Positions 46,045-60,707 of a stretch of 64,000 bases of DNA are shown here, piece by piece. The first letter of the stretch is position 1; each line of letters starts with the position of its first letter. Below the pieces are notes generated by a model. It saw only the letters and a program-made list of their open reading frames with translations. It made no database searches and had not been told where the DNA came from. The DNA lies in contig WGMR01000005.1 in the NCBI GenBank assembly GCA_016124955.1, forward strand, positions 1 through 64,000, given 5' to 3'. The translations under genes were made by a program, and so were the position numbers. The DNA comes from Alphaproteobacteria bacterium. GTDB lineage: Bacteria > Pseudomonadota > Alphaproteobacteria > UBA9219 > RFNS01.

Positions 46045-49000
46045 TTATTCCGCCGCGACCAGATCGTCGATATTTTCCGGCACTTCGCCGTCCCTGATCG
46101 CCTCGGCCTGGCTGAGATTGACGGACACGAGCTGCGAAACACCCTTTTCCATCATCGTCACGCCGAACAGGCGGTCCATCCGCGCCATAGTCAGGCGTTG
46201 ATGGGTGATGATGAGGAAGCGGGTTTTGGTTTCGGTCGCGACCTCGCGCACCAGTTTGCAGAACCGGTCCACGTTGCTTTCATCCAGCGCGGCTTCGGCT
46301 TCGTCGAGCACGCAGATGGGCGAAGGGTTGGTCTGGAACACCGCGAACAGCAACGCGAGCGCAGTCAGCGTGCGTTCGCCGCCCGAAAGCAGGGATAGCA
46401 CCTGCACCTTTTTGCCCGGCGGCGCGGCAAAAATTTCAAGCCCCGCATTCAGCGGGTCTTCATCGTCGATCAGCTCCAGATGCGCCCGCCCGCCCGCGAA
46501 CAGGCGCTGGAACAGGGCCTGGAACTTCTCGTTCACGGAAACGAACGCATTTTGCAGCCGTTCGCGCGCTTCCTTGTTGAGCTGGCTGATGCCCTGCCGC
46601 AGCTTGGCGATAGCGGCCACCAGATCGTCCTTTTCCGCCTGCAGGCGGTCAATTTCGCCCTGCACGGTGTCCGATTCCACCTCGGCGCGCAGGTTCACGG
46701 GGCCCATATTGTCGCGTTCGCGCAAATGGCGTGCCAGCTTGTCTTCCAGATCGCGCATATCCGGCGCGGTTTCGCCTTCCGCCAGCTCGGCTACCTGCAA
46801 AAGCTGGTCTGCCGTGCAATCCAGCTTTTCGGTGATGCGTTCCTGCAGGTCCTTCAGATGTTCTTCGGCTGCCTGCACGCCGGCTTCATAGCGCACGCGG
46901 TTTTCACGCGCGCCCGCCAAGGCGGCTTCGTCGCGCTTCAGCTTCTGTTCCACCTCGGCCAGCGCGGTTTCCGCCGTCATCAGCTTTTCCGCCGCCGCGC
47001 CGCGCAGTGTTTCGGCTTCGCCCAGCTGATCGAGCAAGGCGCTGCGTTCGCTTGCGATTGCCGCCGGGCGCTGGCGCAACCCGATAAGGCTTTCTTCAAG
47101 TTCCATGATGCGCGTCGCCAGCTCATCCAGCTTCGCGAACGCTGTTTGCGAACGCTGCTGCCACGATGCGGTCTCGCTTGTTACGGTCTCTGCACGTTCG
47201 CGCAAGGCGGTCAGTTCGTGCGTGATGCGGTCGAGCTCGCTGCGGCTGATGGTTTGCCTGGCGCGTTTTTCCGTCAGCGCTGCGCGCTGCCTGTCGATCT
47301 CGGGGCGGCGGGTTTCAACCGCGCGGGCAATTTCAAGCTCGCGCGCCGCGCCTTCCATACGCTCCGTGACATGACCGAGATCGTGGTTGGCGTGCAAAAG
47401 CGCATCTTCCAGCGCGGCCAGCTTTGAATTGGCGGCTGCGGCGGCTTCGGCCTTTTCGCTATAGTTGCGGCGGGCATCATTCAACGCGGCAAAAGACTGC
47501 TGCATCGCTTGCCGGGTGGTTTCGACTTCGCGCCGGTATTCGCCAAGCGTGCTTTCCGCCATTTCAAGCGCTTCGCGCGCGCCGCTCGCGGCGGCCTCGG
47601 CTTCGGCGATGTCGCCTTCCAGCGCCGCCAGCCGGTTGCGCTGCTTCAGGCGCACGGCGTATGCGGTGGGGGTTTCGGGGGTGACGGTGTAACCATCCCA
47701 GCGCCAGGCCCAGCCTTCGCGGCTAACCAGAATTTGCCCCGGCTTCAGCTGCGCCGCGAGCGCATCGCCCTGTTCGGTGCCGTTCACGAGCCCGATTTGC
47801 GACAGACTGCGCGCCAGCGCTTCCGGCGCGGTGATCTGGGCCGCAAGCGGAGCTGCGCCCGCCGGCAGCGGCTGCGGGTTGTCATAGGCAGGAAGATCGC
47901 GCCAGTGCGCCGCCTTGTGCGCGCCAACGGGCGCCGTCAACGCTTCGCCAAGTGCGCTGGCCAGCGCGGCTTCGAAGCCGGGCGCAACGTTAATGACATC
48001 GATCAGCTTCTCGCCGTCCTGGTCGGTATCGGCCAAAAGGGTTTTGATCGCGCCCGCCTCGGCCTGCAGCTTGGTGATGTGGGCATCGGCCGCCCGCGCG
48101 CCTTGCTGTGCCGTTTCAAGCGTTTGTTCCGCCTGTTTGCGGAAAGTTTCGGCCCTTTCGTTCGCCGCCTGCCGCTTGGTGAAATCGGCCTCGGTCGCTG
48201 CCAGCATGGATTGCGCCAGCGCCAGTTCGGGCCGCGCGCCGCTTTCGGCCGCGAGCACGTCGCGCTGCTGTTCCAGTTCGGTGCGGCGTTGTTGCAAGGT
48301 CTTTTGCTGGCCGGTCAGCTGTTCGATTTCGCGTGTCAGCGTGGTGCGGCGCGCCTCGGCGTTCGCAACTTCCTCGGTCAGCCGGTCGAGCGCGTCCTGA
48401 AGCGCCGCAACCTCGCCGTCAATCGTTTCCAGCGAAGCCGCGAGCGAAGGCTGCAGCGCCGTCAGCGTGCCCAGTTTCTTTTCAAGCTGCTCGCCCTCCC
48501 GCTGCAGCCGCTCGGTCGCGGCATCGGCATCGCTGCGCAATCCCTGTTCACGGGCGTGGTCCTGCTGCGCCTCGGTCAGGCGCTGTTCCTGCGTCGCGGT
48601 ATCGTCGGCAAGGCGCTTGGCCTCGCTTTCAAGCTGTTCGCGCTTCAGCGTCAGCCGCTGCACGACGGCGGCGGCGGCGGCTTCGGCCTGCCGCAAACCC
48701 GGCAGCCCGGCGGCGGCTTCGGTGCGGTCCGTATTGCCGCGCGTCACGACGGCAAGGAATTCGTTGGCGGCCTGCTCGGCCTGCTGCAGCGCGGCGCGGT
48801 TTTGTTCAAGCTGTTCTTGCCCGGCGGTCCAACGCAGATGCATCAAGGCCGCTTCGGTGCGGCGGATATGTTCGGCAAGGTTGCGGTAGCGCGAAGCCTG
48901 CCGCACCTGTTGCTTCAGCCCGCGCAACTGGGTATCGAGCGCGGCAAGCACGTCATCGACGCGCGTAAGGTTTTGTTCGGCGCCCTTGAGCTTCAATTCG

Positions 49001-49545
49001 GCTTCGTGCCTGCGGGCCTGCAACCCGGCGGTGCCCGAAGCTTCTTCAAGAATCTGGCGGCGGTCCTGGGGTTTGGCGCGGATCAGCGCATCGATCTGGC
49101 CCTGTCCGACAAGGCTGGTGGAATGCGCGCCCGTCGCCTGATCGGCGAACAGAAGCTGAATGTCGCGCTGCCGCACCGGGCGGCCATTGACGCGGTATTC
49201 CGAACCCGCTTCGCGTTCGATCTTGCGGGTGACCACAAGCTCGTCCGTATCGTTGAATTCGGCGGTCGCGCTGCGCTGCGTGTTGTCGAGGCTGAGCGAA
49301 ACTTCACCAAGGTTGCGCGCCGGGCGCGTGGCCGTACCGCCGAAGATTACATCATCCATGCCGCTGCCGCGCATGCGCTTGGGGGATGTTTCGCCCATGA
49401 CCCAGCGCAAAGCTTCGACAAGGTTGGATTTGCCGCAGCCGTTGGGGCCGACGATTCCGGTCAACCCGTTGTCGATCAGCAGATCGGTCGGCTCGACGAA
49501 GGATTTGAAGCCGTGCAGATGGAGTTTTGAAAAATGCAGCGCCAT
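46045..49545 (-). CDS. smc: Chromosome segregation ATPase SMC
   Basis: A 1166-residue SMC protein that compacts and aligns sister chromosomes. N-terminal Walker A GPNGCGKSNLVEALRW at about residues 33-48; long coiled coils at about 170-500 and 650-1000; a hinge near 510-630 (INVAPGFEAALASALGEAL inside it); the C-terminal signature LLSGGERTLTALALLFA and Walker B PICVLDEAEAALDESN. Walker B usually reads DEVDAxLD; here it is DEAEAALD, keeping the catalytic DE. ScpA and ScpB partners are not in the window. The gene starts 27 bases behind the DsbA-like gene in a conserved mutY-dciA-dsbA-smc neighbourhood. Confidence 0.97.
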   Translation of the reverse strand: MALHFSKLHLHGFKSFVEPTDLLIDNGLTGIVGPNGCGKSNLVEALRWVMGETSPKRMRGSGMDDVIFGGTATRPARNLGEVSLSLDNTQRSATAEFNDTDELVVTRKIEREAGSEYRVNGRPVRQRDIQLLFADQATGAHSTSLVGQGQIDALIRAKPQDRRQILEEASGTAGLQARRHEAELKLKGAEQNLTRVDDVLAALDTQLRGLKQQVRQASRYRNLAEHIRRTEAALMHLRWTAGQEQLEQNRAALQQAEQAANEFLAVVTRGNTDRTEAAAGLPGLRQAEAAAAAVVQRLTLKREQLESEAKRLADDTATQEQRLTEAQQDHAREQGLRSDADAATERLQREGEQLEKKLGTLTALQPSLAASLETIDGEVAALQDALDRLTEEVANAEARRTTLTREIEQLTGQQKTLQQRRTELEQQRDVLAAESGARPELALAQSMLAATEADFTKRQAANERAETFRKQAEQTLETAQQGARAADAHITKLQAEAGAIKTLLADTDQDGEKLIDVINVAPGFEAALASALGEALTAPVGAHKAAHWRDLPAYDNPQPLPAGAAPLAAQITAPEALARSLSQIGLVNGTEQGDALAAQLKPGQILVSREGWAWRWDGYTVTPETPTAYAVRLKQRNRLAALEGDIAEAEAAASGAREALEMAESTLGEYRREVETTRQAMQQSFAALNDARRNYSEKAEAAAAANSKLAALEDALLHANHDLGHVTERMEGAARELEIARAVETRRPEIDRQRAALTEKRARQTISRSELDRITHELTALRERAETVTSETASWQQRSQTAFAKLDELATRIMELEESLIGLRQRPAAIASERSALLDQLGEAETLRGAAAEKLMTAETALAEVEQKLKRDEAALAGARENRVRYEAGVQAAEEHLKDLQERITEKLDCTADQLLQVAELAEGETAPDMRDLEDKLARHLRERDNMGPVNLRAEVESDTVQGEIDRLQAEKDDLVAAIAKLRQGISQLNKEARERLQNAFVSVNEKFQALFQRLFAGGRAHLELIDDEDPLNAGLEIFAAPPGKKVQVLSLLSGGERTLTALALLFAVFQTNPSPICVLDEAEAALDESNVDRFCKLVREVATETKTRFLIITHQRLTMARMDRLFGVTMMEKGVSQLVSVNLSQAEAIRDGEVPENIDDLVAAE

Positions 49546-57700: not shown

Positions 57701-58552
57701 ATGGACGTTCATTTCCGGAAAATGCACGGCCTCGGCAATGACTTTGTCATTCTCGATAGCCGCAAAACGGGCTTTGTGCCCGACCTTGCCATGCGACTTC
57801 ACCTTGCCGAAAGACGGCGCGGCATCGGCTGCGACCAGCTCATCGTCATGCTGCCGCCGCGCACAGCCGGGGCCGATGCTTACATCGCTATCTTTAACGC
57901 CGACGGCGGCGAGGAAAATACGTGCGGCAACGCGACGCGCTGCGTCGGGCGCTTGCTGTTCGAGGAAACCGGAAAAGATTCCGCCGTTATCGAAACCGCC
58001 GCAGGCCTGCTGCCCGTTCGTCGCGTGAATGATCTGGTCGAGGTTGACCTTGCGACCCCGAAAACCGGCTGGAATGAAATTCCGCTCGCGGTCGAACAGG
58101 ATACGCAGAAAGTCGATTTCGCAATGCCGCCGCTGACGGATCCGTGCTGCGTCAATGTCGGCAACCCGCATGCCGTGTTTTTTGTGCCCGGGGTCGATGT
58201 CATACCGCTTGCCGCGCTCGGCCCGCAGATCGAAACGCACCCGCTGTTTCCCCGCCGCGTGAATGTTGAAATCGCGCAGGTGCTGGGCCCGGAAAAAATC
58301 CGCATGCGGGTGTGGGAACGCGGCGTCGGCATTACGATGGCGTGCGGCAGCGGGGCGTGCGCCGTGCTGGTTGCGGCCGTGCGGCGCGGCTTGATTGCGG
58401 GGCGCGGCGCTGAAATTCTGCTCGATGGCGGCAGCCTGCGGGTCGAATGGCGGGAAAGCGATAACCGCGTCCTGCTTACCGGCGGCACGGCGCTTGTTTG
58501 CAGCGGCGTGATTGCGCCCGAACTGCTGGCGGCAGCGCGGCGGGCGGCATGA
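57701..58552 (+). CDS. dapF: Diaminopimelate epimerase
   Basis: A 283-residue cofactor-independent epimerase that interconverts LL- and meso-diaminopimelate. The two catalytic Cys sit in ENTCGNATRC and MACGSGACAVLVAA. The N-terminus MDVHFRKMHGLGNDFVILD is characteristic. ATG 57701 is preferred to a GTG at 57665. The stop overlaps mtaB by four bases (ATGA), a pairing common in alphaproteobacteria. Confidence 0.96.
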   Translation: MDVHFRKMHGLGNDFVILDSRKTGFVPDLAMRLHLAERRRGIGCDQLIVMLPPRTAGADAYIAIFNADGGEENTCGNATRCVGRLLFEETGKDSAVIETAAGLLPVRRVNDLVEVDLATPKTGWNEIPLAVEQDTQKVDFAMPPLTDPCCVNVGNPHAVFFVPGVDVIPLAALGPQIETHPLFPRRVNVEIAQVLGPEKIRMRVWERGVGITMACGSGACAVLVAAVRRGLIAGRGAEILLDGGSLRVEWRESDNRVLLTGGTALVCSGVIAPELLAAARRAA

Positions 58553-59793
58553 GCGCGGAACCTGAAATCGTTACCTTCGGTTGCCGGTTGAATATTCATG
58601 AATCGGAAGTCATCCGCATGCATGCGCGCGCGGCGGGCGCGGGCGATGCCGTGATCGTCAACACCTGCGCCGTGACGGCGGAGGCGGAGCGGCAGGCGCG
58701 GCAAACCATCCGCAGGCTGCGGCGCGAAAAGCCGGGCGCACGCATTATCGTCACCGGCTGTTCGGCACAGATCGATCCCGCGCGCTATGCGGCGATGGAC
58801 GAAGTTGATTATGTTGTCGGCAACGATGAAAAATTGCGCCCCGATACCTGGCGTGCGCTGAACGGCGGGAAAATAATCGTCAACGATATCGCGGCGGCGC
58901 GTGAAACCGCGGCGCATCTTGTCGGCGTCACCGGTATTCCGCGCGGATTCGTGCAAGTCCAGAACGGCTGCGACCATCGCTGTACCTTTTGCATTATTCC
59001 GTTCGGGCGCGGGCCTTCGCGCTCTGTTCCCGTCGGCGCTGTGGTAGAGCAGGCGCGCGCGCTGGTGCGCTCTGGCCATAGTGAAATCGTGCTCACGGGC
59101 GTCGATATCGCATCCTACGGGCCCGATTTGCCGGGACGGCCGACGCTGGGACAAATGGTGCGCCGCCTGCTGGCGCTGGTGCCCGAATTGCCGCGCCTGC
59201 GGCTTTCCTCGCTCGATCCCGCGGCGATCGATGATGATCTGTGGCGCTTGATTGGTGAAGAGCCGCGTCTGATGCCGCATCTGCATCTTTCTCTGCAAGC
59301 GGGCGACGACATGGTTTTGAAACGCATGAAGCGCCGCCACAGCCGCGCCGATGCGGTTGCCTTGTGCGCGCGGGCGCGGGCGTTGCGGCCTGATATTGCC
59401 TTCGGCGCCGATTTGATCGCCGGGTTCCCGACCGAAGACGAAGCAATGTTCGCGAACACGCTGCGCGCGGTCGAAGAATGCGGGCTTACATGGCTGCATG
59501 TATTTCCCTATTCGCCGCGCCACGGCACGCCGGCGGCGAAGATGCCGCAGGTCGCGCCGGATGTGCGCAAGCGCCGCGCCGCCGCATTGCGCACGCTGGG
59601 GGGTGTGATGCAGCGGCGGCACTGTGATGCGCTTGTCGGAACGCGGCAGGAAATTTTCGTCGAACAAGCGGGCATCGGCCGCACCCGCCAGTATGCGGAA
59701 GTGCGTTTCGCCGGCACGGCGCAAGCGGGGCAAATCAGAATGGCCGGGATTGTTTCACGTGAAACATCGCACATGGCGGGCAGGCTGGTATGA
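58549..59793 (+). CDS. mtaB: tRNA t6A37 methylthiotransferase MtaB
   Basis: A 414-residue radical-SAM enzyme that adds methylthio to t6A37 in tRNAs. The N-terminal domain VTFGCRLNIHESEVIRMH provides cluster-ligand Cys with NTCAVTAEAE and TGCSAQ. The radical-SAM triad is CDHRCTFC. LVGTRQEIFVEQAG begins the C-terminal TRAM-like part. The final codons I-V-S-R-E-T-S contain a perfect parS site (59751-59766). It overlaps ftsY by four bases. Confidence 0.93.
   Translation: MSAEPEIVTFGCRLNIHESEVIRMHARAAGAGDAVIVNTCAVTAEAERQARQTIRRLRREKPGARIIVTGCSAQIDPARYAAMDEVDYVVGNDEKLRPDTWRALNGGKIIVNDIAAARETAAHLVGVTGIPRGFVQVQNGCDHRCTFCIIPFGRGPSRSVPVGAVVEQARALVRSGHSEIVLTGVDIASYGPDLPGRPTLGQMVRRLLALVPELPRLRLSSLDPAAIDDDLWRLIGEEPRLMPHLHLSLQAGDDMVLKRMKRRHSRADAVALCARARALRPDIAFGADLIAGFPTEDEAMFANTLRAVEECGLTWLHVFPYSPRHGTPAAKMPQVAPDVRKRRAAALRTLGGVMQRRHCDALVGTRQEIFVEQAGIGRTRQYAEVRFAGTAQAGQIRMAGIVSRETSHMAGRLV
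59751..59766. promoter_or_regulatory. parS centromere site
   Basis: The 16-base palindrome tgtttcacgtgaaaca is identical to the canonical parS site bound by ParB. It lies within the coding sequence of mtaB, near its end. parS sites cluster near the replication origin and are conserved among bacteria; a chance perfect match is very unlikely. Confidence 0.9.
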
Positions 59794-60707
59794 GCTGGTT
59801 CAAGCGCTTGCAGCAGGGTTTGCAGAAAAGTTCCGGCAAGCTGGCGGACGGAATCGGCGGCATTTTCACCAAGCGCAAGCTTGATGCCGCGATACTGGAG
59901 GAGCTTGAGGAATTGTTGATTGCCGCCGATCTCGGCCCCGCCGTGGCGGCGCGTCTGGCGGCGGAATTCGGCAAGAACCGTTTTGGCAAAGAAGTGAGCG
60001 ACCGCGAGGTGCGCGAAGCGCTGGCGGAACAGATCGCCGCCTTGCTCGGTCCCGTCGCGAAGCCGCTTGAGATCGACCGGGGCAAGAAGCCGTTCGTCGT
60101 GCTGGTGGTCGGCGTCAATGGCGTTGGCAAGACAACCACCATCGGCAAGCTGGCGCAGCACTATGCGGGGGCGGGCATGAAGGTGATGATGGCGGCGGGC
60201 GATACCTTCCGCGCCGCCGCGGTACAGCAGTTGCAGATATGGGGCGAGCGCACAGGCGCGCCGGTTGTCGCGGGCAAAGAAGGCGCGGATGCCGCCGGGC
60301 TTGTCTTCACCGCGTTGGAGCGGGCGCGCGATGCGAACACCGATCTTCTGCTGGTCGATACCGCCGGGCGGCTGCACAACAAGGAGCATCTGATGGCCGA
60401 GCTGGCCAAGATCGTGCGTGTGATGAAGAAGCTGGATGAAAGCGCGCCGCACGCCACGCTGCTGGTGCTGGACGCCACCACGGGGCAGAACGCGGTGGCA
60501 CAGGCCGAAACCTTCGACAAGCTGACGCCGGTGACCGGCATGGTTGTGACCAAGCTGGACGGAACGGCCAAAGGCGGGGTATTGATTGCACTCGCGGACC
60601 GCTTCAAACTGCCCGTGCATGCCATAGGCGTGGGCGAAGCGGCGGAGGATCTGAAACCCTTCACCGCGCGCGAATTTGCCGCTTCGCTGCTGGCGCTGGA
60701 CAACTGA
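59790..60707 (+). CDS. ftsY: Signal recognition particle receptor FtsY
   Basis: A 305-residue NG-domain GTPase, the SRP receptor. N domain with LLIAADLGPAVAARL; G domain with VVGVNGVGKTTTIGKLAQ (G1), AAGDTFRAAAVQQL, LLVDTAGRLHNK (G3), TKLDGTAKGG (G4). The acidic A domain is absent, as usual in alphaproteobacteria. Overlaps mtaB upstream. Partner Ffh is encoded at 16994. Confidence 0.96.
   Translation: MSWFKRLQQGLQKSSGKLADGIGGIFTKRKLDAAILEELEELLIAADLGPAVAARLAAEFGKNRFGKEVSDREVREALAEQIAALLGPVAKPLEIDRGKKPFVVLVVGVNGVGKTTTIGKLAQHYAGAGMKVMMAAGDTFRAAAVQQLQIWGERTGAPVVAGKEGADAAGLVFTALERARDANTDLLLVDTAGRLHNKEHLMAELAKIVRVMKKLDESAPHATLLVLDATTGQNAVAQAETFDKLTPVTGMVVTKLDGTAKGGVLIALADRFKLPVHAIGVGEAAEDLKPFTAREFAASLLALDN

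Follow-up and report, generated by a model that had tools for sequence, protein, structure and literature searches.

A perfect parS palindrome embedded in the end of mtaB in an alphaproteobacterial genome, a probable accessory ParB-binding site

The parS elements of Caulobacter crescentus are located in essential or high-fitness-cost genes and cluster ~8 kb from ori; the permissive zone spans ~500 kb, and the five strongest sites fall within 5 kb (PMC5815017). Nine of the ten Pseudomonas aeruginosa sites (parS1-10) are found in coding sequences, and six are dispersed and degenerate (PMC4368675). In vivo, P. aeruginosa ParB resides mostly on four ori-proximal sites, not on the dispersed degenerate ones, and oriC lies within a competence zone of 650 kb (PMC5098823). 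The genome analyzed here shares with the Caulobacter ParABS system (parS 1-7) the type of 16-bp element, the ParB recognition helix, the position of parS inside genes and a cluster near the origin, but only three of its sites are clustered, while four are dispersed on other contigs. With P. aeruginosa it shares parS in coding sequence and the occurrence of some sites distant from oriC; the dispersed sites of P. aeruginosa, however, carry two mismatches and are weakly bound, whereas here three of the four match perfectly and the fourth deviates at a single position. As parS is known from coding sequences of both Caulobacter and P. aeruginosa, its presence within genes is ordinary; that three dispersed sites are perfect is somewhat unusual. 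The Noc/NBS system of Bacillus also has a reader of a homologous family and dispersed sites, but the ParB described here lacks Lys/Arg at the positions equivalent to 179/184 (which are occupied by Met and Gly) and keeps the R173/G201 equivalents.

The window, i.e. the whole analyzed stretch of 64 kb, starts contig C5 of a 1.93-Mb assembly (11 contigs, 99% complete). A scan of the window identified the 16-bp parS palindrome TGTTTCACGTGAAACA at 59751-59766 with 0 mismatches (as a palindrome it is assigned to neither strand). The initial annotation had reported this exact canonical element and had noticed no second perfect copy in the window, which holds even when up to 3 mismatches are allowed: no further match was found within the 64 kb, where a shuffled-sequence control predicts 0.10 matches at ≤3 mismatches. 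The base composition predicts the exact sequence at a frequency of 7.5e-11 per position, or ~5e-6 per window. The element lies in mtaB (58549..59793, + strand), which encodes a tRNA t6A37 methylthiotransferase of 414 aa (TIGR01579, 410 bits vs the cut-off of 357), and it is read in frame as V-S-R-E-T (residues 402-406), as had been annotated. mtaB belongs to a dapF-mtaB-ftsY cluster, with dapF upstream (57701..58552, + strand; TIGR00652 above cut-off) and ftsY downstream (59790..60707, + strand; TIGR00064 above cut-off). The start codon of ftsY overlaps the mtaB stop, and the parS element ends 23 bp upstream of the ftsY start. The window also contains smc (46045..49545, - strand; TIGR02168, 814 bits vs the cut-off of 567), the product of which is the condensin that is loaded by ParB-parS complexes in other bacteria.

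The genome-wide scan that the initial annotation had proposed revealed six perfect parS sites and one with a single mismatch, thereby adding five perfect copies and one near-perfect copy to that in the window. Perfect copies are located in recJ (C2:31.0 kb), mnmG (C4:107.4 kb), the first codons of rsmG (two copies, C4:107.7 kb), mtaB (C5:59.8 kb) and ileS (C6:19.0 kb), and the copy with one mismatch in a gene for an M16-family peptidase (C8:96.0 kb), so that all seven are hosted by coding sequence. The expectation by chance is ~0.00014 perfect copies genome-wide, far below the six observed, and a control pattern (the 16-mer read backwards) gave zero matches in the genome. One of the reading frames of the palindrome is closed by TGA, while the two open ones encode VSRET, used by six of the seven sites, and FHVK, used by ileS. 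The sites in mnmG (one) and rsmG (two) adjoin a parA-parB operon (C4:108.6-110.4 kb) and constitute the cluster; the other four, three of them perfect, are dispersed.

The sole ParB-family gene of the genome (C4:109.4-110.4 kb) encodes a protein with the ParB_N, HTH_ParB and ParB_C domains and the motifs GERRWRA and ENIQR, which was aligned with the solved Caulobacter ParB via the recognition helix GKSRSHV and the GHAR motif. The residues equivalent to R173 and G201, on which specificity for parS over the Noc site depends (PMC7383237), are retained. The possibility that the palindrome is a Noc binding site (NBS) was rejected: the reader lacks the equivalents of Q173, K179, K184 and R201, and the sites are those of parS. 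The score of this ParB against the NCBIfam Noc model (225) is below the cut-off of 315. Directly upstream of parB, an ORF of 284 aa with the deviant Walker motif KGGVGKTTT corresponds to ParA; it matches the ParA/RepA models of NCBIfam, in all cases below their cut-offs. Several hallmarks of a chromosomal parS are present, namely the palindrome, a ParB with parS-type residues, an adjacent ParA and copies in excess of chance; parAB, on whose presence the annotation of the element as a centromere had been made to depend, is located on contig C4.

Judging from these sequence features, the mtaB element is very likely a genuine parS and a nucleation site for the chromosomal ParB of this organism, of accessory rank and one of four dispersed sites; it is probably active in that accessory role. 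ParB dimers would dock on the palindrome in mtaB and, having bound CTP, form closed clamps that slide over a few kb of mtaB-ftsY, giving rise to an accessory ParB/SMC focus, while the triple site in mnmG-rsmG beside parAB would serve as the main centromere for segregation. The position immediately before ftsY, 23 bp from its start, and the known capability of ParB to silence neighboring genes (PMC7333895) could alternatively point to a local regulatory role, in which ParB bound at the mtaB site modulates the expression of ftsY. We regard this as very unlikely, as the other six sites lie inside reading frames and share no position with respect to a start codon, the triple site beside parAB is self-explanatory as a centromere, and the start of ftsY and the stop of mtaB overlap, which suggests that ftsY is probably co-expressed with mtaB and not driven from parS.

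The interpretation of the mtaB element as an accessory parS agrees with the constraint visible at the level of DNA spelling. In sampled stretches of the organism's own genome (~0.55 Mb), all VSRET peptides in long open frames are spelled GTT TCA CGT GAA AC(A/G), i.e. they are the parS sites described here. This spelling combines rare codons (TCA accounts for 6% of Ser codons and ACA for 11% of Thr codons), and codon usage gives the exact parS spelling a probability of 1.3e-4 for each VSRET; that all sampled occurrences are nonetheless parS sites argues for selection on the DNA. The burden on the protein seems small, because in an alignment with 11 relatives the VSRET of MtaB falls into a variable loop near the C-terminus and is not conserved there. 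Thus, the earlier proposal that the site constrains both the DNA and the gene stands for the former, through codon choice, and hardly for the latter. In rsmG and the M16 gene the peptide occurs as DVSRETL, apparently at the starts of helices, and this placement of the sister sites suggests that VSRET is readily tolerated there. The ability of parS to reside in genes can accordingly be attributed to the suitability of its open frame VSRET for variable loops and helix starts, and the genome provides a clear case of a centromere element within reading frames for which the DNA-level constraint is quantifiable. That the palindrome in mtaB is a product of chance or a relic, devoid of any role in ParB binding, would be compatible with its lack of conservation in relatives and with the tolerance of the loop to many sequences. 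Given expected numbers of 5e-6 per window and 0.00014 per genome, against four sites away from parAB, and given the joint occurrence of the rare TCA and ACA codons, we find such an origin barely credible.

Comparison with relatives revealed no parS in any of 29 mtaB loci from the class or 80 from named Alphaproteobacteria (flanks included), which indicates from these loci that the mtaB copy is lineage-specific; conservation therefore cannot vouch for it. None of three genomes of the same family has a perfect parS. Across the class, perfect parS was found in 100 of 142 genomes, frequently as pairs ~2 kb apart, and VSRET recurs in relatives at the beginning of RsmG-like frames. Two distant relatives have a perfect and a 1-mismatch parS 0.4-0.9 kb upstream of mtaB (G042:C9:14582; L101:9065), which suggests independent gains in one neighborhood.

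The initial annotation had placed this end of the window within an origin-proximal ParB-loading zone, which our data do not establish. GC skew was sampled in 25 stretches on five contigs (C2, C4, C5, C6 and C8) and in the window. A switch from negative to positive values falls between ~95 and 117 kb of C4, around mnmG-rsmG-parAB, and the 64-kb window contains none. The skew is positive almost throughout C5, which implies that its left end is ori-proximal, negative in C2 and C6, which implies the same for their right ends, and weakly positive in C8. Under the assumptions of a single replicon and a correct assembly, and relying on small skews (0.02-0.05), the minimum distances to the parAB cluster are 82 kb for mtaB, 118 kb for the M16 gene, 132 kb for recJ and 260 kb for ileS; as the contigs are unordered, the 82 kb is a lower bound and the true distance of mtaB may be several hundred kb. 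On the same assumptions, the farthest parS stays at least 344 kb from the cluster however the contigs are arranged, and no more than two of the four distal sites can fall within a distance of 10% of the genome length.

The possibility that mtaB belongs to a compact ParB-loading region around oriC, as part of the main centromere, is favored by the uniformly positive skew of C5 with its ori-proximal left end, just 60 kb from mtaB, by the distance of 82 kb that would result if C5 directly followed C4, and by the distance of 60-200 kb between mtaB and parS/parAB in some relatives. However, the compact cluster consists of the three sites at parAB, with at most half of the distal ones within a tenth of the genome. 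C5 begins at rpoB-rpoC, and the distance between rpoC and parB is 0.3-1.9 Mb in those five relatives that have both on one contig. Distances from mtaB to parS/parAB in relatives range from ~60 kb to >0.8 Mb: mtaB-ftsY and parS are separated by 0.82 Mb in the closed genome of a Micavibrio, and ~0.2-0.3 Mb separate mtaB-ftsY from parB in two other closed genomes. On balance we consider the location in an origin-proximal zone doubtful, albeit worth keeping in mind. Because another parS is, by the skew-based bounds, at least 344 kb away, the presence of a site does not demonstrate that a locus of this genome is near the origin, and in general a lone parS should be regarded as unfit for such a prediction.

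An attempt to place the origin by the gene order of relatives was dropped, since the four distal host loci, or their neighbors, are found at varying distances from parB; the scatter of these orthologs in same-family and closed genomes makes the gene order non-transferable. The identification of the left neighbor of C5 via rpoB/rplA was likewise abandoned: the contig ends in a chimeric rpoB fragment, and the assembly lacks rplA. In positions 1-2247 of the window, the minus strand first encodes rpoB residues 546-629, after which the plus strand encodes residues 662-1238, so that this end reads as inverted and chimeric and lacks the rplKAJL-rpoB 5' part. At its other end (C5:276001-296000), the same contig exhibits near-zero skew and contains reading frames recognized by eye as a MobA-like relaxase and a type I restriction hsdM-like protein; this region is likely to be a mobile island.

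Returning to the accessory sites, a more far-reaching reading is that perfect gene-embedded parS elements extend over at least a third of a replichore, each a true ParB/SMC loading site, with the centromere formed by the dispersed set as a whole. We deem this unlikely on present evidence, yet if it were true, the rule that parS is origin-proximal only would fail in this lineage, and if all dispersed sites were occupied, the lineage would become a test case for the usual clustering of parS. From the sequences at hand, dispersed perfect copies are not unique to this genome. Alphaproteobacterium G111 has its cluster near parB (1922752-1927089) on contig C1, which accounts for 2.13 Mb of a 2.2-Mb genome, and additional perfect copies at C1:312429 and 901896, 0.5-1.6 and ~1.0 Mb along the contig from the cluster, respectively, the 902-kb copy being almost diametrically opposite to it.

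The ParB side of the system shows variation of its own. In family f3 of the same order (parB loci L046-L074) ParB is present and perfect parS is nearly absent. Most of these proteins have GKSR-P-H in the recognition helix instead of GKSR-S/T-H, and the position of Arg173, invariant elsewhere, is occupied by Ala or Phe in two; these changes may represent a drift of parS specificity. A search upstream of parB in relatives without canonical parS for a shared alternative palindrome yielded nothing convincing. In a genome with two ParBs (L196, G021:C111:1-6700), the member with GKSRSQ adjoins one perfect and one 1-mismatch parS, and the other member has GKSRPH.
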